In this document: positions 19,652 to 35,908 of the stretch, one piece after another
Layout: each line of letters opens with the position of its first letter
How positions within the stretch are numbered: position 1 is the stretch's first letter
Assembly: GCA_020072565.1 (NCBI GenBank)
Contig: JAIQGI010000002.1
Location: 1-64,000 of the forward strand
Reading direction: 5' to 3'
From: Terriglobia bacterium
Lineage (GTDB): Bacteria > Acidobacteriota > UBA6911
Length of the DNA stretch: 64,000 nucleotides
Position numbers and translations under genes: made by a program
Notes under the pieces: model-generated
What the model saw: the letters and a program-made list of their open reading frames with translations, nothing else
What the model was told of the DNA's origin: nothing
Database searches by the model: none

Positions 19652-22567
19652 TTACTTCAGGTTGACGGGGCCGAGGTAGCGGTCGAACCAGTTGAGGGTT
19701 TCTCGCATCATGATGCCTCGGACACTAGACAGGTCGTGTCCGGATTCGGTCACAACCTGCTGCTTCCGGTCATCCGGCGTGCCAAGCCGCTTGAACATCT
19801 GGGCCGCCGAGGTCTCGAGCGGGAAAACGAAGTCATAGCGGCCGTTGATCATCAGGACTGGCGCCTTGACCCTCGGTGTGTAATTGAAGTCGTCTATCTC
19901 CGGGCTGCGCGGCGTTAGATTGTATCCACCGATCAGCAGTACGGCCGCTCTCAGCCGCGGTTCCATGGCGAGGAAGATCGACGCAAGCCTCGCGCCCCAA
20001 CTGATTCCAGAATAGGCGATGCGCCCCGCGTCGATATCCGGCCTGCTCTCCAAGTAGTCGACCGAGCGCCGGACCTCACTCAGCCACCACGTCACGCTCT
20101 CTCGCGATTGGTGTCCCACGGCAAGTCCAGCGTCGCGTTCGTAGGTGCCTTTATAGATGGGATAGAGCACCGCCCTTCCGCTCCGGATGATGAAATCAAT
20201 ATAAGCCGTGTTTGTCAGCGCATCCGATTTGCGGACTTGAAGGGCATTGGCCCCGGGAAACCATACGACAGCCTGGTAGGGCGGAACTGCATTTTTGGGC
20301 AGAAACAGGTACGCCGGCAGCCGCTCGCCGCCATAGCCCGCCGAGTACGACACCTTAAGCTTTCTCCAGTTGTCCGGCTTCGCATCTTCCGAGTCCACTT
20401 TGGATTCGAGCGGCCCCGTATCCCGGGGATAGAGCCTTTCAAAGATCCTGAACGCCTCGTCGGAAGCAGGCTTCTCTCGCGCATAGTCCCGGAAGGACTT
20501 GTCCAGGGTACCTGCGTAACGAGCGGGCGGGATCTTCCCATTCTGATACTTCACGCAGCGGAAGCCGTTCTCCGGAGCACGGTCGAAGGGAGGACGAGCC
20601 TCCGATTCCATCAGGAAGTACGAGGGTTCGTTCCACGCGCCACCCAGGGAGTAGCGGCGCCCGCGGGTTTCAGTCCATGTCCATTCGCGATGGTTGCCCG
20701 CCAAATCATAAACGCCGCGCAGCGAGACGCCGGCAAATGTGCCGACCGCCGCAGCGCCTTTGCCGGCAAAGTTGCTGAGCGGCACCATGGTGGGATTGGT
20801 CTGAATCCCGGTGGCCTGGTACCAGTGATACAGCGTTGGCAGGCTCTTGCCGGCATACTCGGCATACGCCGACGCTTCGTACCAACTCACACCGCCAACC
20901 GGGAGATCGTCCTGTCCCTCGCGGTAGGATCCGGCCTCCCACGTCGCGGGCCCCGGCCTCCCGCTCGAATCCACAAACCGCTTCATTGCTTCTTCCCAGG
21001 TGAAGTTGTGCCCCTCCATTAAAAAGCTGTGTTGCCAGTACTCTCGCTTTCGATAGCCACCACCGTCCACGAATCGTTTGAACTGCCGGTTCGTCACCTC
21101 AAACCGATCAATGCAAAATGCCTGCATCGGCCACGGCCCCAACAGTTCGAAACCTGCAAGATCCATCTGAAAGACGGTGTCCGGCAGGCAGGCCATGCCC
21201 ACCTCTGGCGAGCCCACGGGGACAAGACTGAAGTGCATCTCGCCCGTCGAAGGAGGAGGCCCACCAGTCTCCAATTTCTCGTACCCTTCTTTGGAGATAC
21301 TCCAGCGGAAGTAGGAGCGCGGGATGCGGTATTCCTTGAGCGGCGTTAGACCCACCGTTTTCCAGGGCGCATCCACCGCCGCGTACTCCTTCATCGAAAC
21401 GGCCGCACCGGGAGGATCTGTTACAAGCGTGATCGTCCGTGATAACTGCGGCCACAAGCCCTCCAACACCTTGTCGTCAGGTATGACTTTCGCGGCGCGC
21501 CCGGCAAGCTCAAACGCTTTCACGTACTCGCCCTGGTCAGTGAGGCGGGTAATCTCGGGCAGCATTTCATTCCGTGCCCAGTTCGCACGATAGCTCCGCA
21601 CGCCGACCCATAACGCTCCCGCGATCGCGGCGGCGAGGACCAGCAACAGGGGTAGAGCGATGCGCGGGTGTAACAGGGTGCGGAAGCCGGTGGAGCGGCC
21701 AAGAAGCTCCGCCTGGAATTCCACCAGTTCCTGGTGCAAATCAGCGGCGGAGGCGTACCGCAGATCCCGGTTCTTTTCGAGGCAGCGGTTCAGGATCGCC
21801 TCGAGTTTGTGTGGCACTTCGGGGCGCACCTTGCTGGCGCGCACCGGCGAATCCCGCAAAATCGCCGACATCGTCGAAATCGCGGATTCGCCCTGGAACG
21901 CTCTTTGACCCGTCAGTAATTCATAGAGCACGGCGCCCAGACTGAAGATGTCCGAGCGCGCGTCCAGCGGCTTTCCTTCCACCTGCTCGGGGGACATGTA
22001 CGAGACTGTCCCAACTACCGCGCCCTTGTCGGTGAGACTCGGCTCGTCCGCCGGCACGGTCGCAGTTGCCGCTTCGGGGACTCCGGCGGAGCGCACGGTC
22101 AGATGCTTTGCCAAGCCAAAATCCATCACCTTGGCATGACCCTTCCTGGTCAACATGATGTTCGCGGGCTTCAGATCGCGGTGGATGATCCCCTTCTCAT
22201 GAGCCTCCTCCAGGGCGCCGGCGACTTCTAACGCAACTTGAAGCATCTCATTGATGGGCAAGGGCCCTCTGAGAAGCCTGTCCTTGAGGGTTTGTCCCTG
22301 GATATGCTCCATTACAATGAAATCTCTACCATCAACCTCGGCAACTTCATAAACGTTGCAGATGTGGGGATGGTCGAGGGCGGCTGTGGCTTTGGCCTCG
22401 CGGAGGAGCCGTTTGTGGGCGGCTGGGTCCTGCTGCAGCTCCTGAGAGAGAAACTTAAGAGCAACTTCTCGACCCAGCGAAACGTCATCGGCGAGAAAGA
22501 CTTCGCCCATTCCGCCCTGGCCCAGTTTTTCAATGATCCGGTAGTGCGAGATGGTCTTGCCGATCAT
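19652..22567 (-). CDS. Ser/Thr kinase - PEGA - FGE-like - alpha/beta hydrolase fusion
   Basis: A 971-residue multidomain protein. Residues ~8-275 form a Hanks-type kinase: GQGGMG loop at 16-21, Lys38 in VALKF, 'HRDLKPANIML', DFG in 'VMDFGLAK', and 'GTVSYMSPEQVEG'. A transmembrane helix near 310-330 ('IALPLLLVLAAAIAGALWVGV') separates it from extracytoplasmic parts. These are a PEGA-like segment ('PGAAVSMKEY'), a formylglycine-generating-enzyme-like domain ('FCIDRFEVTNRQFKRFV', 'GGVSWYEASAYAEYAGKSLPT', 'DLAGNHREWTW', 'NGFRCVKY'), and an alpha/beta hydrolase with nucleophile GISWGAR, Asp in 'INGRYDFVFP' and His in 'ESGHD'. The start is ATG 22567 with GGAGGGG upstream. It stands alone between TatD and tRNA-Val. 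Physiological targets are unknown. Confidence 0.9.
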   Translation of the reverse strand: MIGKTISHYRIIEKLGQGGMGEVFLADDVSLGREVALKFLSQELQQDPAAHKRLLREAKATAALDHPHICNVYEVAEVDGRDFIVMEHIQGQTLKDRLLRGPLPINEMLQVALEVAGALEEAHEKGIIHRDLKPANIMLTRKGHAKVMDFGLAKHLTVRSAGVPEAATATVPADEPSLTDKGAVVGTVSYMSPEQVEGKPLDARSDIFSLGAVLYELLTGQRAFQGESAISTMSAILRDSPVRASKVRPEVPHKLEAILNRCLEKNRDLRYASAADLHQELVEFQAELLGRSTGFRTLLHPRIALPLLLVLAAAIAGALWVGVRSYRANWARNEMLPEITRLTDQGEYVKAFELAGRAAKVIPDDKVLEGLWPQLSRTITLVTDPPGAAVSMKEYAAVDAPWKTVGLTPLKEYRIPRSYFRWSISKEGYEKLETGGPPPSTGEMHFSLVPVGSPEVGMACLPDTVFQMDLAGFELLGPWPMQAFCIDRFEVTNRQFKRFVDGGGYRKREYWQHSFLMEGHNFTWEEAMKRFVDSSGRPGPATWEAGSYREGQDDLPVGGVSWYEASAYAEYAGKSLPTLYHWYQATGIQTNPTMVPLSNFAGKGAAAVGTFAGVSLRGVYDLAGNHREWTWTETRGRRYSLGGAWNEPSYFLMESEARPPFDRAPENGFRCVKYQNGKIPPARYAGTLDKSFRDYAREKPASDEAFRIFERLYPRDTGPLESKVDSEDAKPDNWRKLKVSYSAGYGGERLPAYLFLPKNAVPPYQAVVWFPGANALQVRKSDALTNTAYIDFIIRSGRAVLYPIYKGTYERDAGLAVGHQSRESVTWWLSEVRRSVDYLESRPDIDAGRIAYSGISWGARLASIFLAMEPRLRAAVLLIGGYNLTPRSPEIDDFNYTPRVKAPVLMINGRYDFVFPLETSAAQMFKRLGTPDDRKQQVVTESGHDLSSVRGIMMRETLNWFDRYLGPVNLK

Positions 22568-22844
22568 GGAGCACCCCTCCACTTGCTCTTCGCGCACTGC
22601 AATCAGAACGACACGAATTTGCTCCGATTATAGTCGACTCCTTCAAGTTTACGCGAAGATATCCAGCAAGAAGTAGTAGAGCAGATCCGGCGACCTAACA
22701 TGAAGGCCCCCAAAAGTTGCGTCCGGAATCCCTGAAGCGGGGCCATTTTCAGGAACTTGTCGGATGTGTGTTAGACGAGAGCCTCGAATGGTTCCAAATT
22801 GGCGGTTGGATTTCAAACTTAAATCGAGTACCATCAACCGCCTG

Positions 22845-22920
22845 GGGCGGTTAGCTCAGCTGGCAGAGCATCGGTTTTACACACCGGGGGTCACAGGTTC
22901 AAGTCCTGTACCGCCCACCA
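22845..22920 (+). tRNA. tRNA-Val (anticodon UAC)
   Basis: A complete 76-base cloverleaf. Acceptor GGGCGGT pairs with ACCGCCC, then discriminator A and an encoded CCA. D arm is GCTCAGCTGGCAGAGC, anticodon stem TCGGT/ACCGG with loop TTTACAC giving TAC, and T arm ACAGG-TTCAAGT-CCTGT. It ends 56 bases before the next gene. Confidence 0.97.
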
Positions 22921-22976
22921 TAGAAATCGTCCCGGTCGTTTCAGTCATCTGTTTTCATGCCGGACGGAGGGTGTTG

Positions 22977-23879
22977 ATGAACAAATTTCAATATCTCCTC
23001 GGAAACTCTTCCGTCATTCTCGCCGATGGTGCGATGGGCACCATGCTGTTCGAGGCCGGCCTGGAATCAGGGGATTCGCCGCAGGCATGGAACATCACGC
23101 ATCCGGAGCGTGTCAGGGCAGTTCACCGCGCTTACCTGGAAGCAGGATCGCAACTGATTCTCACCAACACATTCGGAAGCAATCGCTTCCGCCTCGCGCG
23201 GCACAATCTGCAGGCGCAGGTCGCGGAGTTTAACCGGGCCGGCGCTGCCCTGCTGCGGGCTGAAGTAGATCATGCTGGTGGCAGGGCCCTCGCCGCCGGC
23301 GACATCGGGCCCAGCGGAGAGCTTCTTGCTCCACTCGGCAAGCTGAAGTATGCCGATGCCGCGGATGCCTTCGCCGAACAGGCAGGTGCCCTTGTCGCCG
23401 CGGGCGTCGATCTGATCTGGATCGAGACCATGTCGGCGCTGGAGGAAGTTCAAGCCGCCATCGAAGGAGTACGCAGGGTATCCGTGGAGATCCCTATCGT
23501 TGTGACCATGACCTTTGAAAAACATGGTCGTACCATGATGGGAGTCACTCCGGCGCAGGCAGTGAAGTCCATCATCGACTGGGGGGCATGTGCTCTGGGC
23601 GGCAACTGCGGCACCGGACCGGAAGAACTTTTGAACATCATTCGAACGATGCACGGCCTTATGCCGGAGATGCCGCTGATCTTCAAGCCGAACGCCGGGG
23701 TGCCTGTGCTCCTCAACGGCAAGACCACCTACAACGCTACCCAGGAATCTATGGCCCAATCCGCTCGTGAAGCGGTAAACGCCGGGGCGCGCGTCGTCGG
23801 CGCCTGTTGCGGCAGCACCCCGGCTCATTTACGAGCGATAAGCGAAGGATTCCGCGGCAGAATTGCGCCGAGCGCGTGA
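22977..23879 (+). CDS. homocysteine S-methyltransferase-family enzyme
   Basis: A 300-residue barrel matching the homocysteine-binding domain of MetH/BHMT/MmuM. Motifs: 'ILADGAMGTMLFEAGL' at the N terminus, 'ILTNTFGSNRFRL', 'IWIETMSALEEVQAAI', and the zinc cysteines in 'GGNCGTGPEELL' and 'VVGACCGSTPAHLRAI'. It transfers a methyl group to homocysteine; the donor could be S-methylmethionine, betaine or a corrinoid protein and cannot be told here. The start is ATG 22977 with GGAGGG five bases ahead. It follows tRNA-Val closely and may be read from the same transcript. No corrinoid-binding partner is adjacent. Confidence 0.88.
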   Translation: MNKFQYLLGNSSVILADGAMGTMLFEAGLESGDSPQAWNITHPERVRAVHRAYLEAGSQLILTNTFGSNRFRLARHNLQAQVAEFNRAGAALLRAEVDHAGGRALAAGDIGPSGELLAPLGKLKYADAADAFAEQAGALVAAGVDLIWIETMSALEEVQAAIEGVRRVSVEIPIVVTMTFEKHGRTMMGVTPAQAVKSIIDWGACALGGNCGTGPEELLNIIRTMHGLMPEMPLIFKPNAGVPVLLNGKTTYNATQESMAQSAREAVNAGARVVGACCGSTPAHLRAISEGFRGRIAPSA

Positions 23880-23972
23880 TTGCGGGCGAAGAAATCCCCC
23901 ACACGCAGCCGCCCCGAAGGTAATCTGCAGCAACCATCGGATCTGAATCGCAGGCATGCCGCAGCGTTGGAG

Positions 23973-24134
23973 CTAGCCTTTGGGGTAGACGATAAACTTT
24001 CGCTTTTCCTCTTTCTCCACGTATTCCGCCAACAGTCGCAGGGCGACATGCGTCATCGTCTTTCCCTGCAGAGTGCAGACGACTTTCAGCCTGCGATGAA
24101 GCTCGTCGGGGATATTCATTACCAGGCGTTTCAT
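23973..24134 (-). CDS. 53-residue ribbon-helix-helix protein (ParG/CopG-like)
   Basis: A short gene: MKRLVMNIPDELHRRLKVVC, then 'TLQGKTMTHVALRLLAEYVEKEEKRKFIVYPKG'. The N-terminal strand 'RLVMNIPDELHRRLK' and the following two helices are those of ribbon-helix-helix DNA-binding proteins of the ParG/CopG type, which bind DNA as dimers. No toxin or ParA partner is next to it. The start overlaps a run of ACATAT repeats that looks like its own operator. The gene lies between the homocysteine methyltransferase (convergent) and the membrane protein at 24166-24768 (same strand, 31 bases upstream of it). Confidence 0.75.
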   Translation of the reverse strand: MKRLVMNIPDELHRRLKVVCTLQGKTMTHVALRLLAEYVEKEEKRKFIVYPKG

Positions 24135-24135
24135 G

Positions 24136-24156
24136 ACATATACATATATACATATG
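24136..24156 (-). promoter_or_regulatory. ACATAT tandem repeats before the RHH gene (candidate operator)
   Basis: Three ACATAT copies (24136-24141, 24142-24147, 24150-24155) sit immediately in front of the ATG of the 53-residue RHH gene, in an otherwise GC-rich region. Ribbon-helix-helix proteins commonly bind short tandem or inverted repeats near their own promoter. Binding by this protein is inferred. Confidence 0.45.
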
Positions 24157-24165
24157 CTACTGTCG

Positions 24166-24768
24166 TCAAGATGTTTTCCCCTTCTTCCTGCGTTCCCTCA
24201 CCGACTGAAAGACCAGAAATGCGCCGAAGAGGATCGGAGCCACCGGCCACCATTCTCTGAGCCAATCGAGGGAATAATGGAGGACGGTATTGGAGGCTAT
24301 TATCAGACCCGCAACAATCAGCAGCACACCACCGGCCAGCGACCCATACGCTTCGGGCATCTTGAATTCCTGCGGGAATTCGGTTACGGCAATTCCAGAC
24401 AAGGCCTGATTGTAAAATGAAGCTCTGCGCGCCGCATCGACGAGATTGTAAAGCCAGTAGAAGACCAGAAAAAACACCAGCAGCGGCGTCAGCGGCCAAT
24501 GTACGCGCGGACCGGGAGCGAGCATTGATATCAGCGTCCCAACAACCAGTATGTTGATGAATCCCTGTCGATAATAACCCACGTAGACCTGTCCCAGACC
24601 GGGAACCAGCGAGAGAAAAGTGGCCAGGGCCGGTGACTTGAACCTCGGATCTTCCGGGTAAGCGGGCTTGCGCTGCCATGGGACGTCGCGTGGCGGGTAG
24701 GCGCGGGCGGCGGCCTCTTCGGGTTGGGGCGGATGCGGCTCTTGTCGAGTTTCCTGCGGATTGTCCAT
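24166..24768 (-). CDS. membrane protein with LiaF/TM2-like helices
   Basis: A 200-residue protein. A Pro/Glu/Arg-rich cytoplasmic N terminus of ~45 residues precedes 'SPALATFLSLVPGLGQVYVGYYRQGFINILVVG', a TM2/DUF5683-like pair of helices. Two more helices follow, and a last segment 'LDWLREWWPVAPILFGAFLVFQSVRERRKK', like the WWP helix of LiaF/DUF5668 proteins. AGGAGGG stands before the ATG. It follows the sigma/anti-sigma pair on the same strand 116 bases later and may belong to its regulon. Function unknown. Confidence 0.65.
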   Translation of the reverse strand: MDNPQETRQEPHPPQPEEAAARAYPPRDVPWQRKPAYPEDPRFKSPALATFLSLVPGLGQVYVGYYRQGFINILVVGTLISMLAPGPRVHWPLTPLLVFFLVFYWLYNLVDAARRASFYNQALSGIAVTEFPQEFKMPEAYGSLAGGVLLIVAGLIIASNTVLHYSLDWLREWWPVAPILFGAFLVFQSVRERRKKGKTS

Positions 24769-24884
24769 GATTACCCTCCTATGCTTTCTATCATGATGTC
24801 CTGTGGTTCCCTCTCTTCATCGGAATTAACGCAGCCGGGGCTGCGAGGGTTCGGTGGCGATATACATATTTGTCGAGCCTGGTA

Positions 24885-25730
24885 TCAGCGCACGTCGCGC
24901 TGCTGGTCCGTGCCGTTGCCGTCGAACAGGTCGAGCTTCAGTTCTTCCAGGAAGGAGGATGCCTTCCCACGGAGGGTGGAGGCGGTTCGAATGGGGAAAT
25001 CCGCCGCCTTTTCTGCCAGGCTCCTGCCTCGCAGATGGAGATCATTGAGCGATCGCCGCGCCGACTCCTGTCGACCGGCAAGCGCCGTGGCCGTTTCCTG
25101 CATTATCTGATTGCCGCTCTGAATCACCACCTGGGGCACCGCGAGCGCTTTCGGAAGGACGGCCGGGTTTCCCAGGGCCAGCAGGACGAGGAGGGTGCCT
25201 ACGTAAGCGGCTTCCCAGGCGAAGCGGGGTCTGCGGATCAGGCGGCTCCACCATACGGGGAAATCCAGGGGTTGCCGCGCCTCTCTGATGCGTGAACGAA
25301 GCCCGGCCGTCGCAGAAAAAACGTCTGCCGTGAAGCGCGCGTCCGGCTCAAGCGTTGCCATGCCGGGGAGAACTTCCTTCATTTCGGTCAGCGTTGCCGC
25401 AAGCTCGCAGCAATCCGGACAATGGTCGATGTGGAGGCGGATGATTTCTCCGTCGTCCGGCCTGAGGTTGCCGTCGACCCAAGCGCACAGGAGTTGCTCA
25501 GCGCCGTCGCAGGCAGGCCCGCTCGTACGGCAGAGGATCGAGCGCGCCAGGTCATCCTGCAATTCCGCGGCCAGCAAGTTCGCCTCCCCCCGTACGATCC
25601 CGAGCAGGGCACGGCAGCGGGCGCACGCACTCAAATGCCTGGCGGCGGCTTCCCGTTCTTCGGACGGCAGCAAGCCCCCTTCGAAGGCATCAAGCCGGTC
25701 TTCAAAGCTCTCGCAATCCATAGCCGTCAT
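24885..25730 (-). CDS. anti-sigma factor with two zinc-finger (zf-HC2) modules
   Basis: A 281-residue protein. The first module, 'AAARHLSACARCRALL', and the second, 'IIRLHIDHCPDCCELAATL', both fit the H-x3-C-x2-C zinc motif of ZAS anti-sigma domains. Most family members have one such module. One membrane helix follows near residue 180 ('AAYVGTLLVLLALGNPAV'), and the C-terminal ~100 residues are outside. It starts within the stop of the ECF sigma gene (TCAT on the plus strand), so the two are translationally coupled. It should hold the sigma factor inactive at the membrane until a signal arrives. Confidence 0.85.
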   Translation of the reverse strand: MTAMDCESFEDRLDAFEGGLLPSEEREAAARHLSACARCRALLGIVRGEANLLAAELQDDLARSILCRTSGPACDGAEQLLCAWVDGNLRPDDGEIIRLHIDHCPDCCELAATLTEMKEVLPGMATLEPDARFTADVFSATAGLRSRIREARQPLDFPVWWSRLIRRPRFAWEAAYVGTLLVLLALGNPAVLPKALAVPQVVIQSGNQIMQETATALAGRQESARRSLNDLHLRGRSLAEKAADFPIRTASTLRGKASSFLEELKLDLFDGNGTDQQRDVR

Positions 25731-26281
25731 AACTCACCGCTGAGCGCCATCACTTTGCGCGCCAATTCGATCCGCGCCCGGTTGGAGCGGGATTTGACCG
25801 TTCCCAGGGGAATGTGGAGCATGGTGGCAATCTCGTCCAGTTGCAGGCCCTGGATCTCTTTAAGCAGGATAATCTCGCGATTCAGATCGGTGAGTTCCCT
25901 CAATGCACGGTAGATAAGGCGTTTCCTGGAGTCGGCCGCCCACTGCTGCTCAGGGGTGTTGCCCTTGTCTGGCAGATCGGCAATCTCGTCGAGCGCTACA
26001 TCCCTGCCTTGCGATCTTGCTCTCTTCCTGCGCAAATGATCGATGCAGGCATTGCGGGCAATCCGGATGATCCAGGGCAGAAACATCTGCTCGTCGGTAG
26101 AGCTTCCGAGATTCTGATAGATGCGCACAAAGACCTCCTGGGCCAGATCGCGTGCATCCTCGGGATTTCCGACATAGTGATAGGCGATCCCATAGATGCG
26201 TGACTGGAACTGGCGCACCAGCGCCTCCCAGGCGAGCGCGTCGCCAGCCTTGCATCGTGAGAGGATCACGGAGAGATTCAT
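25727..26281 (-). CDS. ECF RNA polymerase sigma factor
   Basis: A 184-residue group IV sigma factor. Region 2 shows 'ALVRQFQSRIYGIAYHYVGNPEDARDLAQEVFVRIYQNL' and 'PWIIRIARNACIDHLRRKRAR'. Region 4 shows 'LIYRALRELTDLNREIILLKEIQGLQLDEIATMLHIPLGTVKSRSNRARIEL'. It directs RNA polymerase to a stress or envelope regulon. It overlaps the anti-sigma gene by four bases. A perfect 14-base palindrome lies just upstream. Confidence 0.95.
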   Translation of the reverse strand: MNLSVILSRCKAGDALAWEALVRQFQSRIYGIAYHYVGNPEDARDLAQEVFVRIYQNLGSSTDEQMFLPWIIRIARNACIDHLRRKRARSQGRDVALDEIADLPDKGNTPEQQWAADSRKRLIYRALRELTDLNREIILLKEIQGLQLDEIATMLHIPLGTVKSRSNRARIELARKVMALSGEL

Positions 26282-26676
26282 TTTGAGCCCGCGCCGGTTT
26301 AAACCGGGAACGCCCCCATTCTGAGCTCACGCTGACCAAATCACACTGGTAAAAACGCAAGACCCCGTTCAGAGGTTCGGCTGAAAGAGGCAACTGCGTC
26401 ATTTTCCCATCGACACTTCTGGAGACCTCGCACCGTGCTCCGAGGTAAATTGCTATTTTCATGCGCTTGGGCGCGCCCCGGCGCTTGAGCGACTGCTCGG
26501 GAAATATCAGTGAAAAGCAAGAGATCCACGCAGAGGACGCGGCGTTAAGCTGTTGAGGCACAAGGTAGTTTTCGTGCGCATGGGTGCACTTGCCCCAGGA
26601 GAGACTGTCCCGCAAATCCAGGTGTCCTTAATTCGCTACTGTTCCGGGGGCGGGTCCTGCGGTAGAATCAAAAAAT
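26282..26676 (+). other. divergent intergenic region between the sigma gene and amrS
   Basis: About 400 bases with no convincing gene. It contains the palindrome at 26294-26307 on the sigma side, one arm of the CGCAGAG-type repeat word near 26528, and TAGAAT (26662-26667) just before amrS, a possible -10 without a clear -35. Nothing else is recognised. Confidence 0.5.
26294..26307. promoter_or_regulatory. perfect 14-bp palindrome upstream of the sigma gene
   Basis: CCGGTTTAAACCGG, centred about 20 bases before the sigma factor ATG. It could be an operator or a short hairpin in the leader mRNA. No binding protein is known. Confidence 0.4.
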
Positions 26677-27774
26677 ATGCCAGCATTATCTGAGGTGCTT
26701 CAGCAACATACACGCGAGGGTGAGCTCTACGAAAGGCTCGATGGGGACCGCGTGCGATGCTTTGCTTGCGGCCATTGCTGTCCGATTCCGGAAGGATCGG
26801 CCGGAGTATGCAAAGTCCGTTACAATCGCGGCGGCCGCCTGATGGTTCCCTTCGGCTATGTATCCGGGGCCCAGTGCGATCCTGTGGAAAAGAAGCCCTT
26901 CTTCCACGTCCGCCCCGGTGCGCTTGCCTTCAGTTTCGGCATGCTCGGCTGCGATCTCCACTGCAGCTTTTGCCAGAACTGGGTGACATCCCAGGCTATC
27001 CGTGATCCCCAAGCCGTATCTTCCGCTTTTCAGACAACGCCGGAAAAGCTGGTGCGGAGTGCGATGTCGCAAGGCGCGGAAATCGTGGTCAGCACTTACA
27101 ACGAGCCGCTCATAACCAGCGAGTGGGCGGTTGAGGTGTTCAAACAGGCAAAATCGGCTGGCCTGATGACGGGTTTTGTATCCAACGGCAATGGGACGCC
27201 GCAGGTCCTGGAGTATCTGCGGCCCTGGGTGGATCTTTACAAGGTCGATCTGAAAGGCTTTGACGACCGCCGCTACCGCAAACTCGGCGGGCGCCTCCAG
27301 CCCATTCTCGACACCATTCGCAGCCTTCACCAGAACGGTTTCTGGGTGGAGATCGTCACGCTGCTGGTGCCGGGTTTCAACGATTCTGAGGAAGAGCTGA
27401 CCCGATTGACCCAATTCATTGCCGAAGTATCTCCGGATCTGCCGTGGCACGTGACGGCCTATCACCAGGACTACAAGATGACCGACAATCCTGACACAAG
27501 CGCCTCCGACCTTGCTCGGGCCGCGGAGATAGGGAGGCGAGCCGGATTACACTATGTCTATGCCGGCAACCTGCCTGGAAGGCTGAAGAACCTCGAAAAC
27601 ACGTATTGCCCCCGTTGTGGGGGCTTGCTGGTCGAACGCCGTGGATACCGGATACTCCAATATTCCCTGACCGGCAACGGCACTTGCCCATCCTGCTCTC
27701 AAGTCATCCCCGGCAGATGGGCCGCATCACTTCAGGCGCAGCGACCCGCCTTCTCCTTCTTCGCCCGTCGCTAA
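26677..27774 (+). CDS. amrS: AmmeMemoRadiSam-system radical SAM enzyme
   Basis: A 365-residue radical SAM protein. The cluster-binding CxxxCxxC is in 'FGMLGCDLHCSFCQNW'. An N-terminal Cys group ('RCFACGHCCPIPEGSAGVCKVRYN') and 'PFGYVSGAQCDPVEKKPFFH' are characteristic of AmrS/PflA-like enzymes of the AmmeMemoRadiSam set. 'TYNEPLI', 'DLYKVDLKGFDDRRYRKLGG' and a C-terminal zinc-ribbon-like 'CPRCGGLLVERRGYRI' complete it. In other genomes it stands beside AMMECR1 and Memo genes; neither is in this window. Its substrate is not established. Confidence 0.9.
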   Translation: MPALSEVLQQHTREGELYERLDGDRVRCFACGHCCPIPEGSAGVCKVRYNRGGRLMVPFGYVSGAQCDPVEKKPFFHVRPGALAFSFGMLGCDLHCSFCQNWVTSQAIRDPQAVSSAFQTTPEKLVRSAMSQGAEIVVSTYNEPLITSEWAVEVFKQAKSAGLMTGFVSNGNGTPQVLEYLRPWVDLYKVDLKGFDDRRYRKLGGRLQPILDTIRSLHQNGFWVEIVTLLVPGFNDSEEELTRLTQFIAEVSPDLPWHVTAYHQDYKMTDNPDTSASDLARAAEIGRRAGLHYVYAGNLPGRLKNLENTYCPRCGGLLVERRGYRILQYSLTGNGTCPSCSQVIPGRWAASLQAQRPAFSFFARR

Positions 27775-27876
27775 TCAGCCCCGGCCGCAAACCAGATTCC
27801 TGTCGTGACTCTGCATATTGCCTCAAAGATCGCAACATTGCGCCCAGCCACAACCGACAATTCCAAAGCCCAAAAT

Positions 27877-28656
27877 CTATGGAAGGACTCCTTGTGCTCG
27901 GAACGGATTGCGGATGCGGTTGCAGTACTCGGCGATCTGCGGTGCCATGGCCTTGTCAAAGCGCCGGGGGCGGGGAAGATCGATGGAAATAGTTTCCAGT
28001 ATCCGGCCCGGGCCCGGCGACATCAGCGCAACCCGGTCCGAGAGCAAGACAGCTTCGTGCATGTTGCAGGTGCAAAGTACAGCCGTGGTTCGGGTCTCAG
28101 CCCAGAGGCGCTGTAAGCTGTCGATCATCTGTTCCAGCGACAGAGGATCCAGTGTCCTGAAGGGCTCATCCAGGAGCAGCAGGGAAGGACTGTGGACCAG
28201 CGCCCGGCAGATTGAGATCGCCTGCGCCGTGCCCGGAGGCAGTTCATAAGGTTTGCTCTGCTCGAATCTCGACAGGCCGAACCACGCCAACAGCCGGCGC
28301 GCCCGATTACTGCTTTCCAGCAGGTCTAGACCGCGCATTTCGGCTGGCAGGAGAATGTTCTGCATGGAGGTCCGCCAGGGCAGCAAAGCGGGTTCTTCGA
28401 AGGCCAGGCCGAAATCGCGGCTTGGCGGCTGGAGTTTCGTCCCCGCGATCCTGATCTCACCGTTCGTGATCGGCACTATTCCGGCGATCATCTTGAGCAG
28501 GGTTGTCTTGCCGCAGCCTGCAGGGCCGACGATCGATAGAAACTCACCGCCTCCGATGTCGAGGGATACCGGGCCGACGACCGCTCGAATTTCCCGCCCG
28601 ATGACCCGGGCGTGATAAACATTCCGGATTTGAAGCTGAGCAGTAGGCGAGGACAT
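27877..28656 (-). CDS. ABC transporter ATPase (SsuB/TauB type) with altered catalytic motifs
   Basis: A 259-residue nucleotide-binding subunit. Walker A (GPAGCGKTT) and Walker B (LLLLDEPF) are intact. Against the SsuB pattern, the Q-loop reads FEEPALLPW (Gln to Glu), the signature reads ELPPGTAQ instead of LSGGxxQ, and the switch region reads TCNMHEAV in place of THDxxEAV (His to Cys). It overlaps the permease stop by ATGA. The start is ATG 28656; upstream codons belong to the permease in another frame. ATP turnover may be slow or regulated, or the protein may be a specialised non-standard ATPase. It is the last gene of the F420 run. Confidence 0.88.
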   Translation of the reverse strand: MSSPTAQLQIRNVYHARVIGREIRAVVGPVSLDIGGGEFLSIVGPAGCGKTTLLKMIAGIVPITNGEIRIAGTKLQPPSRDFGLAFEEPALLPWRTSMQNILLPAEMRGLDLLESSNRARRLLAWFGLSRFEQSKPYELPPGTAQAISICRALVHSPSLLLLDEPFRTLDPLSLEQMIDSLQRLWAETRTTAVLCTCNMHEAVLLSDRVALMSPGPGRILETISIDLPRPRRFDKAMAPQIAEYCNRIRNPFRAQGVLP

Positions 28657-29513
28657 CAAACCCTTCGATTCAAGGAGAAGCCCTTCAGGCTGTTCTGCCT
28701 TACCAGGTCTATCCAGGGGGGTACGGGAGCTGGCCACGAAATCCAGGCTCTCTCGATAAGACAAATGGCATAGTAAGCCCCCAGAGCCATCAGGACGACC
28801 ACAGTCAATGCCGCAAACAGCTGGGCTGAGTCCGCCTTGGCACCGGCGTAAAGCATCAGATAACCGAGGCCGTTGTCGGAGCCGACCCACTCCGTCACCA
28901 TGGCTCCGGCCAGCGCAAGTGTGACCGAGAGCTTCACGGCGCGTGTCATATAAGGCACGCACGCAGGCAGATGGACTTTCAGGAAGATTCGTAACGGGCC
29001 GGCTCCCATCGTCTGCAGTATTTCAACAATGTCGACCGGCACGGAGTCGAAACCGGCCTGCAAATACGCTGCCAGGAATGGAAAGCACACCAGGAAGGAA
29101 ACCGCGGCGGCAGGTGCGGCGCCGAGCCCTAACCAGAGAACGACCAGCGGAGCCAGGACCAGCAACGGCAGCTTCTGCAGGAATGAGAGCACCGGCACCG
29201 CGACACCGCGGGCCCTGGTTGACCAACCGTTCAGGATCGCCAGGAGAAAGCCGGCCGCTCCGGCGAAAAGCAGGCCTTCCAGAGATTCCAGACCCGTAAC
29301 CCAAGCATGGTTTCTCAGCTGGGGAGCTTCCCTCCAGATCTCGAGCAGGACACGCGATGGTGCGGGCAACGCTGAGGACCGTACCTGGAGAACCCAGATG
29401 ACGATCTCCCACAGCAGCAGCAGCACAGCTGCGATAACCGGGCCTGACCCCAGCCGAACGGTCACTCGCCCCAACAGTTTTCCGGCGAACGGCGGCTCTT
29501 CACTTACGGGCAT
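28656..29513 (-). CDS. ABC transporter permease (SsuC/TauC type)
   Basis: A 285-residue inner-membrane permease with about six helices and the EAA-like coupling loop 'EILQTMGAGPLRIFLKVHLPACVPYM' facing the ATPase. It belongs to the nitrate/sulfonate/taurine family, which also includes importers of thiamine precursors and riboflavin. No substrate-binding protein gene is adjacent. It begins 37 bases after the PPOX gene and overlaps the ATPase gene, so it is part of the same minus-strand run as cofE, cofC, cofD and npdG. Confidence 0.9.
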   Translation of the reverse strand: MPVSEEPPFAGKLLGRVTVRLGSGPVIAAVLLLLWEIVIWVLQVRSSALPAPSRVLLEIWREAPQLRNHAWVTGLESLEGLLFAGAAGFLLAILNGWSTRARGVAVPVLSFLQKLPLLVLAPLVVLWLGLGAAPAAAVSFLVCFPFLAAYLQAGFDSVPVDIVEILQTMGAGPLRIFLKVHLPACVPYMTRAVKLSVTLALAGAMVTEWVGSDNGLGYLMLYAGAKADSAQLFAALTVVVLMALGAYYAICLIERAWISWPAPVPPWIDLVRQNSLKGFSLNRRV

Positions 29514-29550
29514 GGTCTGTCTGGCATCCTCATCGGTGAGGCGGCACCGA

Positions 29551-29949
29551 TCATCCCATGGTGCTTACATGCTCGGGCGTCACCTTGTACAGCACCCGCA
29601 CTTCGGCGGCTGAACGGTGGGGATAACTGTCCACATTCAAATACTTCTTGGCCAGTCGGTCGATGTGCTGGTCTGCACCTTCTTCAGTTATTTCAGTTAC
29701 CCGGCCGCGGATTTCAAGGTAGCGGTAAGGATTCTTAGGATCCATGATGGACAGCGCCACCCTCGGATTGTTGCGCATGTTGCGATCCTTGACCCGGCCT
29801 TTGGCAGAGTTGATCCTCACGTACTCGCCATCGTAGTCAAACCACACCGGTGTAACGTGAGGGCTGCCGTCTTTCATCAGCGTTGCCAGATTGGCGAAAG
29901 CAGGCTGCTGGATCAAGTCGATGAAATTCTCAGGGATTTTGGCTGCCAT
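29551..29949 (-). CDS. PPOX-class F420-dependent oxidoreductase
   Basis: A 132-residue split-barrel flavin/deazaflavin enzyme. Family motifs are 'FANLATLMKDGSPHVTPVWFDYDGEYVRINSAKGRVKDRNMRNNPRVAL' and 'YLEIRGRVTEITEEGADQHIDRLAKKY', as in the F420-dependent (TIGR03618-like) branch of pyridoxamine-phosphate-oxidase-like proteins. GAGGAGAG precedes the ATG. It lies ten bases after cofE, so it is probably a user of the F420 made by the operon. Substrate unknown. Confidence 0.88.
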   Translation of the reverse strand: MAAKIPENFIDLIQQPAFANLATLMKDGSPHVTPVWFDYDGEYVRINSAKGRVKDRNMRNNPRVALSIMDPKNPYRYLEIRGRVTEITEEGADQHIDRLAKKYLNVDSYPHRSAAEVRVLYKVTPEHVSTMG

Positions 29950-29959
29950 GTCGCTCTCC

Positions 29960-30742
29960 TCAACGAAAAAGGTCTTCCTCCGCCGGGCGGATCAAATCCC
30001 TGCCGCTTGCTTCTACGGGCGTGTAGCGAAAACCTTCGATTATGGCGGCCGGGATACCTGTGGTCTTCCCCATGACCAGCTCGGCCGCCCCGGCGAGCTC
30101 GTCGGCGACCGCAAGCACCGTCGCTTGAAGCAGGCGTCCATATGAGTCTACCTGTCCTCGATAATCGATAAAAGGGGAAAGACCTGAGACGCCGAGCGCT
30201 ACGTTCGTCAGGCCCTTGCGCCAGGGTCTGCCGAAGGTATCGGAGACAATCACTGCCACGCTCCGGTGCAGTGCCTGTTCGAATTCCTGCCGGAGGCGTG
30301 CAGCCGACTTGTCGGGATCCTGAGGCAGCAGGACCACCATTCCACTTGGGGCATTGGAAGCGTCGACGCCGGCGTTGGCGCAAACATAGCCGTGGTGGGT
30401 CTCCGCGATGATGATGCCGCGATCCATCTTCACAATGCGCCGGGCTTGTTGAAGCACGACCTCTACCATGCGCGGGTCCTTATGATATTCGGAAGCCCAC
30501 ACCTGGGCTCGGGCAGAGGGGACGATCCCGTCCAGCCGGACCAGGCAGCCCTCCGACTTGCTCACGACCTTCTGCGCGACGACGATTACGATCGGATCGG
30601 ACTCTTCGGGACGCCCCTCACGCGGCGTTGCGCTGACAGCCGCGGATGCCAGTGCCCTTAGAATTTCCGTCGCTAGGTTCGTCCCCGACAGAATTTCAGG
30701 AATCCCCTGCAGTCCCCGGATCCGGATCTTGCTGGAAAGCAT
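29960..30742 (-). CDS. cofE: coenzyme F420-0:L-glutamate ligase
   Basis: A 260-residue GTP-dependent ligase adding gamma-linked glutamates to F420-0. Visible family features are 'IVIVVAQKVVSKSEGCLVRLDGI', 'DRGIIIAETHHGYVCANAGVDASN', 'LLPQDPDKSAARLRQ', 'VIVSDTFGRPWRKGLTNVALGVSGLSP' and 'VADELAGAAELVMGKTTGIPAAIIEGF'. It is the single-domain archaeal-like form; the C-terminal nitroreductase-like domain that actinobacterial FbiB uses to reduce dehydro-F420-0 is absent. Its start lies 47 bases inside the end of cofC. Confidence 0.93.
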   Translation of the reverse strand: MLSSKIRIRGLQGIPEILSGTNLATEILRALASAAVSATPREGRPEESDPIVIVVAQKVVSKSEGCLVRLDGIVPSARAQVWASEYHKDPRMVEVVLQQARRIVKMDRGIIIAETHHGYVCANAGVDASNAPSGMVVLLPQDPDKSAARLRQEFEQALHRSVAVIVSDTFGRPWRKGLTNVALGVSGLSPFIDYRGQVDSYGRLLQATVLAVADELAGAAELVMGKTTGIPAAIIEGFRYTPVEASGRDLIRPAEEDLFR

Positions 30743-31391
30743 GGTTTGCGAGCCTCTCTTTGATATTCAGGTCCACCAGCGTATGGTAAGTCTCGCCGGG
30801 AACCGGCCGGGAGAGAAAACGGACAATGTCGGCAGGATCGTCGAGATCCAGCTCCAGGTGCGGGTTTTGCACGATCCTGAGATGAGCACCGGCTGCTGCA
30901 GCTTCGCGAAGGTGGAGTGTAAAGCTGCCGGGGCCGAAGCGTGATGGGAACAGGTCAGGAGGCGTGCGCAGGAGCGCGTTGGTTCCCGTCCGATCCCAGG
31001 ATGGCGCCAGCACGGCGCCCGGAGCGGTGATCGGCAGCGAGAGTATTTCCCCGACATCCTCTGGCCGCACCAGCGGCAGATCGGCCGGCAGGCGCAAGAC
31101 CGCCTCCACCCCTTCCTTCGCCAGATGCTTGGAGGCCGCATCAACGGATGCGCTCTCGGAAGTCTGAACCTCTTCCCAGAGCACTCTCCACCCGAGCTTC
31201 TCAACCCGCGCCGCGGCCCGGGTTGAGTTGGTTATGATCGCGACCGGATAGGAAAGCGGGAGCAAGGCGCGGATCATATCTTCCAACATGGCCCAGGCGA
31301 CAGCGCATCTCTCTTGAGCAGTCAGCAGTGGAGACATTCTCGATTTGGCCATCGCATGTTCTTTCACGGGAACGAGTATGACGGGAGTCAC
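30696..31391 (-). CDS. cofC: 2-phospho-L-lactate (or PEP) guanylyltransferase
   Basis: A 231-residue nucleotidyltransferase making the GPP-type donor for CofD. From the GTG at 31391 the protein reads VTPVILVPVKEHAMAKSRMS, matching the family start 'vPvK...aKsRL'. Further motifs are 'VLRLPADLPLVRPEDV', 'VLAPSWDRTGTNALLRTPPDLFPSRFGPGSFTLHL' and 'LELDLDDPADI'. The start overlaps the cofD stop (GTGA), and the 3' end overlaps cofE by 47 bases. Whether it uses 2-phospholactate, PEP or 3-phosphoglycerate cannot be judged. Confidence 0.92.
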   Translation of the reverse strand: MTPVILVPVKEHAMAKSRMSPLLTAQERCAVAWAMLEDMIRALLPLSYPVAIITNSTRAAARVEKLGWRVLWEEVQTSESASVDAASKHLAKEGVEAVLRLPADLPLVRPEDVGEILSLPITAPGAVLAPSWDRTGTNALLRTPPDLFPSRFGPGSFTLHLREAAAAGAHLRIVQNPHLELDLDDPADIVRFLSRPVPGETYHTLVDLNIKERLANHAFQQDPDPGTAGDS

Positions 31392-32314
31392 GGCAGGACC
31401 TCCAGCAGAGACTTTGCCAGCGCGACTTTCGAGGCCGTGCTGTCCATGACCGTCTCGACGGCGTGAACCTCCAGGCCGAGAGCCGCAATCTGTTCGCACA
31501 GGTTCTCATCGCGGCGGTCTAACATGAATATGTCGAGGAAATCCCGGTAAAGCCTGGCGACGCTCACGGCGGAAACCTCGTGGCCGAGCTGGCGCATCAT
31601 GGCTGCGGCCGGCCCCTTGAGCGCGTCTCCGGCAACAATGGGGGATACCGCCGCGATGGTCGCCGGTGTGGCACTAAGCGCCTCTCTGATCCCGGGCACC
31701 GCAAGGATTGGGCCGATACTGATATAAGGATTGCTGGGACATACTACGACGGCATCTGCACTCTGGATGGCATCGAGAACGCCCTGAGCGGGGCTGGATG
31801 CCTCGATCCCCTGGAAAGAAAAGCCGTCGACCAATGGCGCGCACTTCCTGCGCACATAGTAATCCTGAAAAGCCAATGTGCCTTCTTCGGTGTGCACCAT
31901 GGTAGGAACGGGAAAGTCGGTCATGGGAAGAATTCGGGCGGTGATGCCGTTTTGCCGGCATATAGCTGCAGTCGCCTCCGTGAGCGTCTTGCCGTTCTGG
32001 AGGCAATGGGTGCGGTAGAGGTGGGTGGCCAGGTCGCGATCCCCTAACTTGAACCAGGTGTCGCCCCCCAATTCACCCAGGCGCTCGAGGCAGCGGAACG
32101 ATTCGTCCCGGATCCCCCATCCGGTCATGGGGTTGTCGAGGCCCGCCAGCGTGTAAGTGATGGTGTCGAGATCGGGACAGATATACAGCCCCATCCAGCA
32201 AAAGTCGTCGCCGGTGTTGACGACAACGGTAAGATCTTCGGCCGGCATGACTTTGATCACGCCGGACAAGAGCTTTGCCGCCCCAACTCCCCCTGCCAGC
32301 GCCGTCAGCCTCAC
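31388..32314 (-). CDS. cofD: 2-phospho-L-lactate transferase (F420 biosynthesis)
   Basis: A 308-residue enzyme joining the activated phospho-acid to FO, giving (dehydro-)F420-0. Motifs: 'LTALAGGVGAAKLLSGV' at the start, 'VVNTGDDFCWMGLYICPDLDTITYTLAG', 'GDRDLATHLYRT', 'QDYYVRRKCAPLV', 'VVCPSNPYISIGPILAVPGIREAL' and 'VSPIVAGDALKGPAAAMMRQLG'. The start is GTG. It overlaps cofC. An FO synthase (CofG/CofH or FbiC) needed to make its acceptor is not in the window. Confidence 0.95.
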   Translation of the reverse strand: MRLTALAGGVGAAKLLSGVIKVMPAEDLTVVVNTGDDFCWMGLYICPDLDTITYTLAGLDNPMTGWGIRDESFRCLERLGELGGDTWFKLGDRDLATHLYRTHCLQNGKTLTEATAAICRQNGITARILPMTDFPVPTMVHTEEGTLAFQDYYVRRKCAPLVDGFSFQGIEASSPAQGVLDAIQSADAVVVCPSNPYISIGPILAVPGIREALSATPATIAAVSPIVAGDALKGPAAAMMRQLGHEVSAVSVARLYRDFLDIFMLDRRDENLCEQIAALGLEVHAVETVMDSTASKVALAKSLLEVLP

Positions 32315-32408
32315 GACATCTTCCCATCCCGGAATATCTGAATGGATCGAGCTCTTGGACCGTTTCCGTTAAATGCGGAAATGGGGATCCTGTCACCCCA
32401 TCTTTGTT

Positions 32409-33065
32409 TCAGATGCCTTCAATTCGGTAGCGCGCGCCCTTTTTTTTGTAATGCCGGTTGAGCTCGGCCGCGAGCGTGGTCATGCGTTCCAGCGTCCGCG
32501 CCGTGCGCAACGGTCCGCCGTCGAGGGGGCGCAGCGACGGGATCAAGTTCGCCGCCGCCATCACCTTCTGTTTGGCATCAGCCGAATCGCTGCACACGAA
32601 CACATCACAATTCAGAGTCGTTTCCAGGTCTGCGAGAACGAAGGCGGGGATGGTTTTAAATGCTGCGACCAGGGGAACCCCGGCCGGCAGGTGGCGCGCA
32701 ATCTGCTCCGAATTTGATCCGTTCTCCGGCTCCAGATACTCAGCATGACCTGCGCGAAAAAGCAGCGGTACCGTCACGTCGACGATGACATGACGAGAGG
32801 TGAGCAAAGTACCGCAGTTCTCTACGGCGTTCACAGCCTGGGCAAACGGGACCGTGAGGAAAATGATTTCGGAGGCATCGAGCATCGCGTGATTGCCCGC
32901 CCCCCGAATCAGAGATTCCCCCAGGATTGTGTTGTACCTCTCTGCCGCCTGCGCCGCACGCTCCGCCGAGCGCGAGCCCACGATGACAGATGCCCCGGCA
33001 GCAGCGAAACGAAGCGCCAATCCTTTTGCCTCAATTCCCGTGCCGCCCAAGAATCCTATGTGCAC
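32409..33065 (-). CDS. npdG: F420-dependent NADP reductase (Fno/NpdG-like)
   Basis: A 218-residue Rossmann protein transferring hydride between NADP(H) and F420. It starts 'HIGFLGGTGIEAKGLALRFAAAGASVIVGSRSAERA', where GRS-R marks NADP preference. It continues with 'EIIFLTVPFAQAV', 'VIVDVTVPL', 'AAFKTIPAFVLAD', 'CDVFVCSDSADAKQKVMA' and 'DGGPLRTARTLERMT'. The start is GTG at 33065. It is the first gene of the minus-strand F420 run, 94 bases before cofD, and would supply reduced F420 to the PPOX enzyme. Confidence 0.9.
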   Translation of the reverse strand: MHIGFLGGTGIEAKGLALRFAAAGASVIVGSRSAERAAQAAERYNTILGESLIRGAGNHAMLDASEIIFLTVPFAQAVNAVENCGTLLTSRHVIVDVTVPLLFRAGHAEYLEPENGSNSEQIARHLPAGVPLVAAFKTIPAFVLADLETTLNCDVFVCSDSADAKQKVMAAANLIPSLRPLDGGPLRTARTLERMTTLAAELNRHYKKKGARYRIEGI

Positions 33066-33380
33066 AGCTCATCCTCCGCACACGAAACCGCACCGACCGC
33101 AGGGCAACCCGGCGGCTGCAACCAGAAGCGGAAACCTCGCATCATACGAAATACACGAAACAACCCCTCGTGGTGTTCGTATGGCTGCAGGAGTTTTTAA
33201 CGGCTTGTTCCGAAAAAACACAAGAGTACAGACCTGCTGCCCCCGGATCCTGAAGAAAATTCTCTGCAGCCTTCGCGGACTTGGCGGTTCGACTTTCAAC
33301 GCCGGCTCAAAGATACCACAGTTCGACCTGCCTAAGTGCGGTGCCGAGGCTATAATCCTAGGGAGGGGTGGGCTTGTCCA
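33066..33380 (+). other. divergent intergenic region between npdG and the acyl-CoA dehydrogenase
   Basis: About 315 bases with no credible gene. TATAAT at 33351-33356 is a consensus -10 for the rightward gene, though no good -35 stands at the proper distance. A long imperfect hairpin occurs at 33143-33183. GGGAGGGG (33361-33368) precedes the rightward ATG. Confidence 0.5.
33143..33183. repeat. intergenic inverted repeat of the CGAA/CACGA type
   Basis: CATACGAAATACACGA (33143-33158) pairs, with a few mismatches, with TCGTGGTGTTCGTATG (33168-33183), leaving a 9-base loop. It shares words with the other intergenic hairpins in this window. Confidence 0.6.
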
Positions 33381-34472
33381 ATGTACTCATTTGAGCCTTC
33401 TGCAGATCAGAAGACGCTGGTGGAGGCTGCCCGAAAATTTGCCGCAAGGGAACTTCGCCCTGTGATGCGCGAGAGCGACGAGAAGGGTGACCTGCCTGCC
33501 CGCCTGTTTCAAAGCGGCTGGGAACTCGGCCTGCTTCCCGCGAGCATCCCGGAGAGCTACGGAGGGTTTGGCGAGCGCTCTGCGGTCACTGGGGTACTGG
33601 CTGCGGAAGAACTGGCTTGGGGCGATTTATCCGGCGCCCTGGCGCTCATGGCTCCCAATCTTGCGGCTTTTCCTCTCCTCCTCTGTGGCACGCTTGCGCA
33701 GAAGGCGAAGTTGCTCCCGCTGTTCTGTTCCGATTCCTATACGCCGGGATCCGCCGCCCTCATGGAGCCCCGCTACGACTTCGACCCGGGCGCGCTGCGG
33801 ACGCACGCCACGCTGTCTCATGGCGAATTCACTTTGGACGGCATCAAGTGCAATGTACCGTTTGCCGCCGAAGCGGAATGGATGCTGGTTTATGCCGCTC
33901 ACGACGGACAAAGCCAGGTTTTTTTTGTGCCCAGGGACACGGCTGGCCTCTCAGTGAAGGAACGTGAACAAAACATGGGCATGAAAGCCTGCCCTTGCTA
34001 CACGGTCGAGTTCAAGGGCTGTCGCGTTCCCGCTTCGCATCGGCTGGGAGAGGAAGCCGGCTGCGATCTTCAGCTGCTGCTTAACTCGTCACGGGTGGCG
34101 CAGAGCGCGTTGGCGCTGGGTGTTGCGCGCGCGGCTTATGAGTACGCCCTGGAATATGCGAAAAACAGGAAGGCCTTCGGCGAGGCGATCGCTCAGCGCC
34201 AGTCGATCGCCTTCATGCTGGCCGAGATGATCACCGATCTGGAAGGCGCGCGCATGATGGTCTGGGAGGCGGCGTGGCTCCTCGATCAGGGGCGTGATGC
34301 GACGCGAGAGGCTTTCCTGGCCAGGAATTTTGCAGACGACATGGCACTCAACGTGTGTGATCGGGCGCTTCAGGCCCTTGGAGGGCATGGTTATATCCGT
34401 GACTATCCCGTGGAACTGTGGCTGCGCAATGCCCGCGGTTTCGCAGTCATGGAAGGAATCGCGATGGTGTAG
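33381..34472 (+). CDS. acyl-CoA dehydrogenase (first of a pair)
   Basis: A 363-residue flavoenzyme of the acyl-CoA dehydrogenase family, which makes an enoyl-CoA while passing electrons to ETF. Segments: N-terminal helical domain 'DQKTLVEAARKFAARELRPVMRESDEKG', 'ESYGGFGERSAVTGVLAAEELAWGD', and C-terminal 'YALEYAKNRKAFGEAIAQRQSIAFMLAEMITDLEGARMMVWEAAWLLDQ' with 'DRALQALGGHGYIRDYPVELWLRNARGFAVMEGI'. The catalytic Glu position near the C terminus reads MEG. I chose ATG 33381. It is followed after ten bases by a second dehydrogenase; such tandem pairs often form heteromers. Confidence 0.9.
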   Translation: MYSFEPSADQKTLVEAARKFAARELRPVMRESDEKGDLPARLFQSGWELGLLPASIPESYGGFGERSAVTGVLAAEELAWGDLSGALALMAPNLAAFPLLLCGTLAQKAKLLPLFCSDSYTPGSAALMEPRYDFDPGALRTHATLSHGEFTLDGIKCNVPFAAEAEWMLVYAAHDGQSQVFFVPRDTAGLSVKEREQNMGMKACPCYTVEFKGCRVPASHRLGEEAGCDLQLLLNSSRVAQSALALGVARAAYEYALEYAKNRKAFGEAIAQRQSIAFMLAEMITDLEGARMMVWEAAWLLDQGRDATREAFLARNFADDMALNVCDRALQALGGHGYIRDYPVELWLRNARGFAVMEGIAMV

Positions 34473-34482
34473 GAGAAACGCA

Positions 34483-35721
34483 ATGATTAGCTTCGAGATG
34501 CCCGAGACCATCCGCGCCCAGGTGGATCTGGCGCACCGTATTGCGCTCAACCTCATGCGTCCACGGGCGCGCTACTATGATGACAACGAGCACGAGATTC
34601 CCTGGGACTATGTCAACTTCATGTGGAGCGATGCACTCGTGGCGGGGCAGGAGTCCCGCTCGGATGCCCGGGATTCCGGAGCCGGGTCAAGGCACGCTTC
34701 CACGGGCCTCGCGGCTTCCATGGCCCTCGTGCACCTCGTCGAGGAGCTCTCCTGGGGCGATGCCGGCATTTACCTGTGCACACCCGGTTCGATTCTGGGT
34801 GGTGCGGCTGTCGAAGCCATAGGCACGCCGGAGCAGAAGACACGCTTCCTCGCGCGCTATCGCGAAGGCGAGCCCAAATGGGCGGCTATGGCCATGACCG
34901 AGGCCCACTGCGGATCGGACATGGCTGCGATCAGGACGAGGGCTGTGCGCAACAGCGACCACTGGGTGCTCAACGGCGAGAAGATATTCGTGACCAACGG
35001 CCACAAGTCGCTCGTGGATTCGAATGGCTTCGTCGTGGTGTGGGCAACTGTGGAGCCGTCCGCGGGCCGTGCCGGGATCAAACCCTTCGTCGTCGAAGCC
35101 GGCACCCCGGGCCTGAAAGTGGTCAAGCTCGAACAGAAGATGGGAATCAGGGCGAGCGACACAGCCACCCTGCTGCTGGAGAATTGTTGTATACCACTGG
35201 GAAATCTTCTCGGCAACGCGGAGGTGCTCGAAGCCGGTGCGGGCTTCAAGGGAGCGATGGCGACATTCGATGCTACGCGGCCAACCATAGCCGCAAGCGC
35301 ACTCGGCATTGCACGGGCGACCATCGATCTGCTAAAGGAGTTGCTGGCTCAGGATGGAATCTCCATTTCCTACGCCCGGCCCCGAAACCTGCACACCGCG
35401 ATCGAACGGGACATACTTGACATGGAGGCGCAGCTGCGTGCCGGGTGGCTGCTGACGTTGAAAGCGGTCTCGATGATGAGCCAAAACCGGCCCAACACGC
35501 TCGAAGCTTCCATGTGCAAGATCAAGGCAGGGGAGGTTGTGACGCGCGTGACGCAGAAGGGCGTAGAACTTATGGGACCGCTCGGCTACTCGCGGAGGCT
35601 GTTGCTGGAAAAGTGGATGCGTGATGCCAAGATCAATGATCTGTTCGAGGGCACAGGCCAGATCAACCGTCTGATCGTGGCGCGCCGGATTCTCGGTTAC
35701 TCCAGCAGGGAGTTGAAATGA
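34483..35721 (+). CDS. acyl-CoA dehydrogenase (second of a pair)
   Basis: A 412-residue acyl-CoA dehydrogenase. Motifs: 'MAMTEAHCGSDMAAIRTRAVRN' (FAD/substrate loop), 'WVLNGEKIFVTNGHKS', 'KLEQKMGIRASDTATLLLENCCIP', 'DATRPTIAASALGIARATIDLL' and 'GVELMGPLGYSRRLLLEKWMRDAKINDLFEGTGQINRLIVARRIL', with the FEGT motif carrying the usual Glu. TAGGAGA from the end of the first gene serves as ribosome site. The two enzymes differ clearly in sequence, so they are not a recent duplication. The acyl substrate is unknown; no ETF genes are in the window. Confidence 0.93.
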   Translation: MISFEMPETIRAQVDLAHRIALNLMRPRARYYDDNEHEIPWDYVNFMWSDALVAGQESRSDARDSGAGSRHASTGLAASMALVHLVEELSWGDAGIYLCTPGSILGGAAVEAIGTPEQKTRFLARYREGEPKWAAMAMTEAHCGSDMAAIRTRAVRNSDHWVLNGEKIFVTNGHKSLVDSNGFVVVWATVEPSAGRAGIKPFVVEAGTPGLKVVKLEQKMGIRASDTATLLLENCCIPLGNLLGNAEVLEAGAGFKGAMATFDATRPTIAASALGIARATIDLLKELLAQDGISISYARPRNLHTAIERDILDMEAQLRAGWLLTLKAVSMMSQNRPNTLEASMCKIKAGEVVTRVTQKGVELMGPLGYSRRLLLEKWMRDAKINDLFEGTGQINRLIVARRILGYSSRELK

Positions 35722-35747
35722 CATGCACCCGCAACGAGCGGACTTTT

Positions 35748-35804
35748 GGAACCACCGAGACTCCCGCGATACTGCTCCAGGCTCCTCGCGCCCTCCGTGG
35801 TTCG
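35748..35804. repeat. intergenic inverted repeat after the acyl-CoA dehydrogenases
   Basis: GGAACCACCGAGACTCCCGC (35748-35767) is an imperfect complement of CTCGCGCCCTCCGTGGTTCG (35784-35803). It lies between a stop codon and the next gene on the same strand, so a terminator role is plausible. Related in wording to the hairpins near 33143, 50641 and 58819. Confidence 0.55.
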
Positions 35805-35908
35805 CATTCTGGATACACAAAGATTGATTTCCCTGCATTTGTTCGCGTACATTGTCCCTGCTCCTGTACTACCTCGCTTATATGCGCAGGACTCAAATGG
35901 AGGGAATG

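Follow-up and report, generated by a model that had tools for sequence, protein, structure and literature searches.

What is left of an ABC transporter when its motor subunit no longer carries the motifs for hydrolysis? An ATP motor is what defines an ABC importer, and a conserved lineage that keeps the motor subunit without its hydrolysis motifs would provide a natural test of the other roles of that subunit. The question is raised by a gene in a 64,000-nucleotide stretch of contig JAIQGI010000002.1 of a Terriglobia bacterium, here called the window. The gene (27877-28656, minus strand) encodes a degenerate NitT/TauT-type ABC ATPase of 259 amino acids, as assigned by PF00005 (92.5 bits), alignments and an AF2 model. 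Its best NCBIfam models are of the TauB/SaoA/NrtD type, with scores below the curated cut-offs of all these named families. The ATG at 28656 overlaps the stop codon of the adjacent permease gene by one base (TGATG), and the stop codon of the ATPase gene lies at 27877-27879. The fold is predicted to be intact (pLDDT 94.5, pTM 0.91), the closest solved folds being those of CmpD and NrtD. A residue read-out confirmed what a sequence-only reading of this DNA had noticed, namely that Walker A, Walker B and the D-loop are kept while the Q-loop, the LSGG signature and the switch His are altered. Walker A (GPAGCGKT, residues 44-51; 28504-28527), Walker B (LLLLDE, residues 159-164; 28165-28182) and the Leu-Asp of the D-loop (TLDP) are intact; the Q-loop Gln is replaced by Glu (Q87E; codon 28396-28398), LSGG by LPPG (residues 139-142; 28231-28242) and the switch His by Cys (H197C; codon 28066-28068), all on the minus strand. 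In other words, the protein has the ABC_tran domain of a NitT/TauT ATPase with both Walker motifs, and lacks LSGG, the Q-loop Gln and the switch His.

Orthologues of this protein are found in a genome of the same genus (G001, 60% identity) and in one of the same family (G004, 54% identity), the genome of the window being G000. The Q-loop Gln, the signature and the switch His are lost in both, and G001 has the gene in the same F420 context; the alignment that had been proposed as a check on the earlier reading thus shows that the losses are not a local mutation or an assembly error. The replacements vary across the three orthologues (in the order G000, G001, G004): Gln has become Glu, Asp or Ser, the Ser-Gly of the signature PP, PP or TP (giving LPPG in G001 and LTPY in G004), and His Cys, Ser or Glu. 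G141P is common to all three. In addition, the catalytic Glu of Walker B is lost in both relatives, G001 having Gln and G004 Asp in its place. At the C-terminal end, the window protein carries a tail, RAQGVLP (27880-27900, minus strand), whose AQGVLP is shared unchanged by the degenerate proteins of G001 and G004. The degenerate group, which has three members, all from draft genomes, forms a single clade (support 100/99) nested in canonical relatives, and a single origin of the loss is therefore the simplest reading. No fourth degenerate member was found in a class search (38 genomes) or a phylum search (396 genomes), and a contig scan of genomes for relatives gave canonical ATPases, with no further degenerate orthologue among the matches listed.

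Such a combination of losses is rare. We gathered 84 related ATPases by N-terminal and Walker A patterns or by whole-protein scores, independently of the motifs under study; all 84 had kept the signature Ser, 82 the Gln and 81 the His. Not one (0/84) had lost all three. Among 11 other ABC ATPases read from the window genome, the signature Ser was present in every case and the switch His in 10, the alignment of the remaining one ending just short of the His; the Q-loop was unusual in two, and in two the signature deviated at the first Gly. We then considered the 47 columns whose conservation in the canonical set reaches 85% or more. Of the 10 columns that serve hydrolysis or the ATP sandwich, none is kept by all three degenerate proteins, each being broken in one or more of them, versus 28 of the 37 other columns that all three keep (Fisher p=1.8e-5). 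The set of 10 reflects what is established about ABC ATPases, but it was fixed after the alignment had been viewed. The kept positions include the P-loop Gly, Lys and Thr, the Walker B Asp, Trp94, Asn100, Arg151 and Glu201. A different deviation was seen in two Acidimicrobiia ATPases (L101, 54-827; L102, 8001-8690), in which the Q-loop Gln is Ala, the signature is LSQG and the His is normal.

To estimate selection, omega was calculated by codon maximum likelihood and by NG86. Under the codon model it was 0.079 for the degenerate clade, versus 0.048-0.070 for the canonical sets; the permeases gave 0.083. These values are approximate because synonymous sites are near saturation. Fixing omega at 1 for the degenerate clade worsened the fit by about 126 log-likelihood units. 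The degenerate ATPase is under strong purifying selection, and neutrality is untenable. The earlier suggestion that the protein is not decaying is thus borne out, both by the losses shared between orthologues and by an omega of about 0.08, which is not that of neutral drift. The further suggestion of coordinated, selected replacements found no support, in that the residues standing in for the motifs vary from one orthologue to the next, and the catalytic Glu is gone from two of the three as well. Together, these two observations point to a release from hydrolysis rather than to a tuned alternative chemistry.

The partner of the ATPase is a cognate NitT/TauT-type permease of 285 amino acids (28656-29513, minus strand; PF00528, 84.8 bits), whose fold resembles CmpB/NrtB in a predicted model of moderate confidence (pLDDT 76). 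The permeases of G000, G001 and G004 form a clade of their own that mirrors the ATPase tree, showing that the degenerate ATPase and its permease have been inherited together, although in G004 their genes are separated by a major-facilitator gene. The permease retains most positions that are conserved among transporting relatives. No NMT1-type binding protein (PF09084, PF13379) was found near the permease-ATPase pair, the single one in G000 being part of another, canonical system, and no second ATPase adjoins the pair in G000, G001 or G004. Elsewhere in G000, L039 encodes an SsuA-like binding protein with an apparent OmpA-like C-terminal region (2035-3771), a few kb from a canonical NitT-type ATPase and permease.

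Considering these results, we regard it as reasonably probable that the protein is a pseudo-ATPase, serving the NitT/TauT-type permease next to it as nucleotide-binding subunit without running a normal ATP cycle, and that the permease works independently of hydrolysis. Indeed, catalytic residues have been lost from a protein whose fold and gene are conserved under selection, and from the sequence we infer the loss of hydrolysis with good confidence. In canonical ABC dimers, the gamma-phosphate has the hydroxyl and the backbone amides of the signature among its ligands, and a proline has no backbone N-H. Because prolines replace these phosphate-holding signature residues, two subunits should be unable to form a normal ATP sandwich, so that a normal hydrolysis cycle would not be driven. 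The pseudo-ATPase would still be docked to the permease, perhaps with bound nucleotide, and the permease would be a carrier that needs no ATP hydrolysis and that the pseudo-ATPase might gate or stabilize. Compared to known NitT/TauT ATPases (TauB, SsuB, NrtD and CmpD), the window protein shares the fold, the P-loop and a gene order with a permease of the family, but differs in lacking the Q-loop Gln, LSGG and the switch His, and in having no adjacent binding protein. With the degenerate-site ABC transporters TAP, MRP, TM287/288 and Pdr5 (PMC7756269) it shares an altered signature and switch His and, in two orthologues, an altered catalytic Glu. However, those transporters have one degenerate site built from two ATPase domains, whereas here all defects lie on one subunit; and while the sequence of a degenerate site is conserved from one orthologue to another (PMC7756269), the residues at the degenerate motifs vary among our three.

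The sequence-only reading had offered three roles, of which the slow ATPase has become less likely and the heterodimer partner unlikely, while a regulator or structural subunit is possible. A slow ATPase would be a homodimer with altered chemistry that hydrolyzes ATP slowly to energize import. The intact Walker A, Walker B with its catalytic Glu and D-loop of the window protein fit such a role, as does the statement in a review that degenerate sites with Glu changed to Asp reportedly can still hydrolyze slowly (PMC7756269), and trace ATPase activity in the window protein is possible, the catalytic Glu being kept there. We nevertheless consider this explanation unlikely, given that both orthologues have lost that Glu (to Gln and Asp), the replacement residues are not conserved, the signature prolines remove phosphate ligands, and a binding protein was not found nearby.

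Slightly less likely still, the protein could pair with a canonical ATPase encoded elsewhere to give one active site. The solved structures nearest to it, those of CmpC/CmpD and NrtC/NrtD, do come from two-ATPase systems, and many other ABC ATPases are encoded in G000. A composite site combines the Walker A, Walker B, Q-loop and His of one subunit with the signature of the other (PMC7756269), and a subunit that has lost the Q-loop, the His and the signature together therefore damages both composite sites. Moreover, no second ATPase lies beside the pair in any of the three genomes, and the window protein is the opposite of the ATPase pairs at L098, L109, L112 and L113, which split their defects across two nearby genes: one ATPase has an L/V-SSG signature and a normal His, and the nearby one has LSGG and a Thr or Ser for the His. 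These complementary-defect NitT/TauT operons (L098, 6336-7061 and 8010-8696; also L109, L112 and L113) form, in their own right, a natural set of degenerate-site importers.

We give a slim chance to a complex that is not a transporter at all, with the ATPase as a regulatory or sensory subunit whose nucleotide occupancy reports the state of the cell to the permease or another protein; the kept P-loop, the new conserved C-terminal tail and the lack of a binding protein among the genes found nearby would agree with this, but the permease keeps most transport-conserved positions and no signalling gene is fixed beside the pair. Neutral decay of a dispensable transporter, although it would accommodate replacement residues that vary between orthologues and the loss of FO synthase from the genus (see below), is largely refuted and barely credible in the face of three intact ORFs at 54-60% identity, the low omega, the identical AQGVLP tail and a conserved operon position.

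The surroundings of the pair offer a candidate substrate. In the window, all on the minus strand, the operon starts with npdG, for an NADPH-dependent F420 reductase (32409-33065; TIGR01915, 182.1 bits), followed by cofD, for FO phospholactate transferase (31388-32314; TIGR01819, 326.9 bits), cofC, for 2-phospholactate guanylyltransferase (30696-31499 as an ORF, the real start probably lying further in; TIGR03552, 130.8 bits), cofE, for F420-0:glutamate ligase (29960-30742; TIGR01916, 262 bits), and a gene for an F420-dependent PPOX-class oxidoreductase (29551-29949; TIGR03618, 125.5 bits), all scoring over the respective cut-offs. The order npdG-cofD-cofC-cofE-PPOX-permease-ATPase is common to G000 and G001. 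FO synthase (CofG, CofH) was not found in either genome; a CofH-like match in G000 proved to be MqnC. The other CofD-bearing genomes of the class number 17, and CofG is present in 16; the seventeenth (G036) was rejected as a case without FO synthase, because it does have CofH, at the edge of a contig that cuts off CofG. Luciferase-like oxidoreductases number 12 in G004, 1 in G000 and 3 in G001.

FO is common in the culture supernatants of F420 producers (PMC11917521). Precedents for its uptake by such a permease come from two sides. RibXY is a NitT/TauT permease system that carries riboflavin, and ribXY cloned without a dedicated ATPase is functional in E. coli (PMC4418817); the system studied here resembles it in its NitT/TauT permease, and differs in that neither an FMN riboswitch nor a binding protein of the RibY type was found. 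Solitary BioY and BtuM are ABC-type membrane parts that move a vitamin without an ATP motor, for which metabolic trapping has been proposed (PMC6072759), although their fold is unrelated (ECF S-components) and here a pseudo-ATPase is retained. By analogy with these systems, and given the lack of FO synthase and the extracellular occurrence of FO, salvage of FO via this permease is plausible. More speculatively, the pair may have joined the F420 operon in the genus of the window and may admit FO, since G000 and G001 both lack FO synthase, and CofD would trap the FO that has entered as charged F420-0. That the genus, having lost FO synthase, derives its F420 from the FO of its neighbours, through an ABC-derived permease with a non-hydrolyzing ATPase and with CofD trapping pulling the uptake, is as a whole a doubtful proposal. 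It does not explain the origin of the degeneration, because G004 has FO synthase and carries the pair outside the F420 operon. If the link to F420 is true, it would be evidence for FO as a resource shared between bacteria, with a candidate transporter. Our literature searches found no described FO importer, and no paper on FO salvage or on FO genes in Acidobacteria.

The Rfam search for an FMN riboswitch covered positions 22000-36000 and gave one tRNA only. This tRNA gene (22845-22917) lies just upstream of a homocysteine-methyltransferase-like gene, whose true start must be later than called, because the called ORF start precedes the tRNA. Finally, an F420-adjacent permease in G029 was considered as a relative of the window permease and set aside, the grouping being weak. 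At this locus (L169, 9103-10934), a binding protein and a NitT/TauT permease adjoin F420 genes with no adjacent ATPase, and luciferase-like and PPOX-like oxidoreductase genes are beside them.
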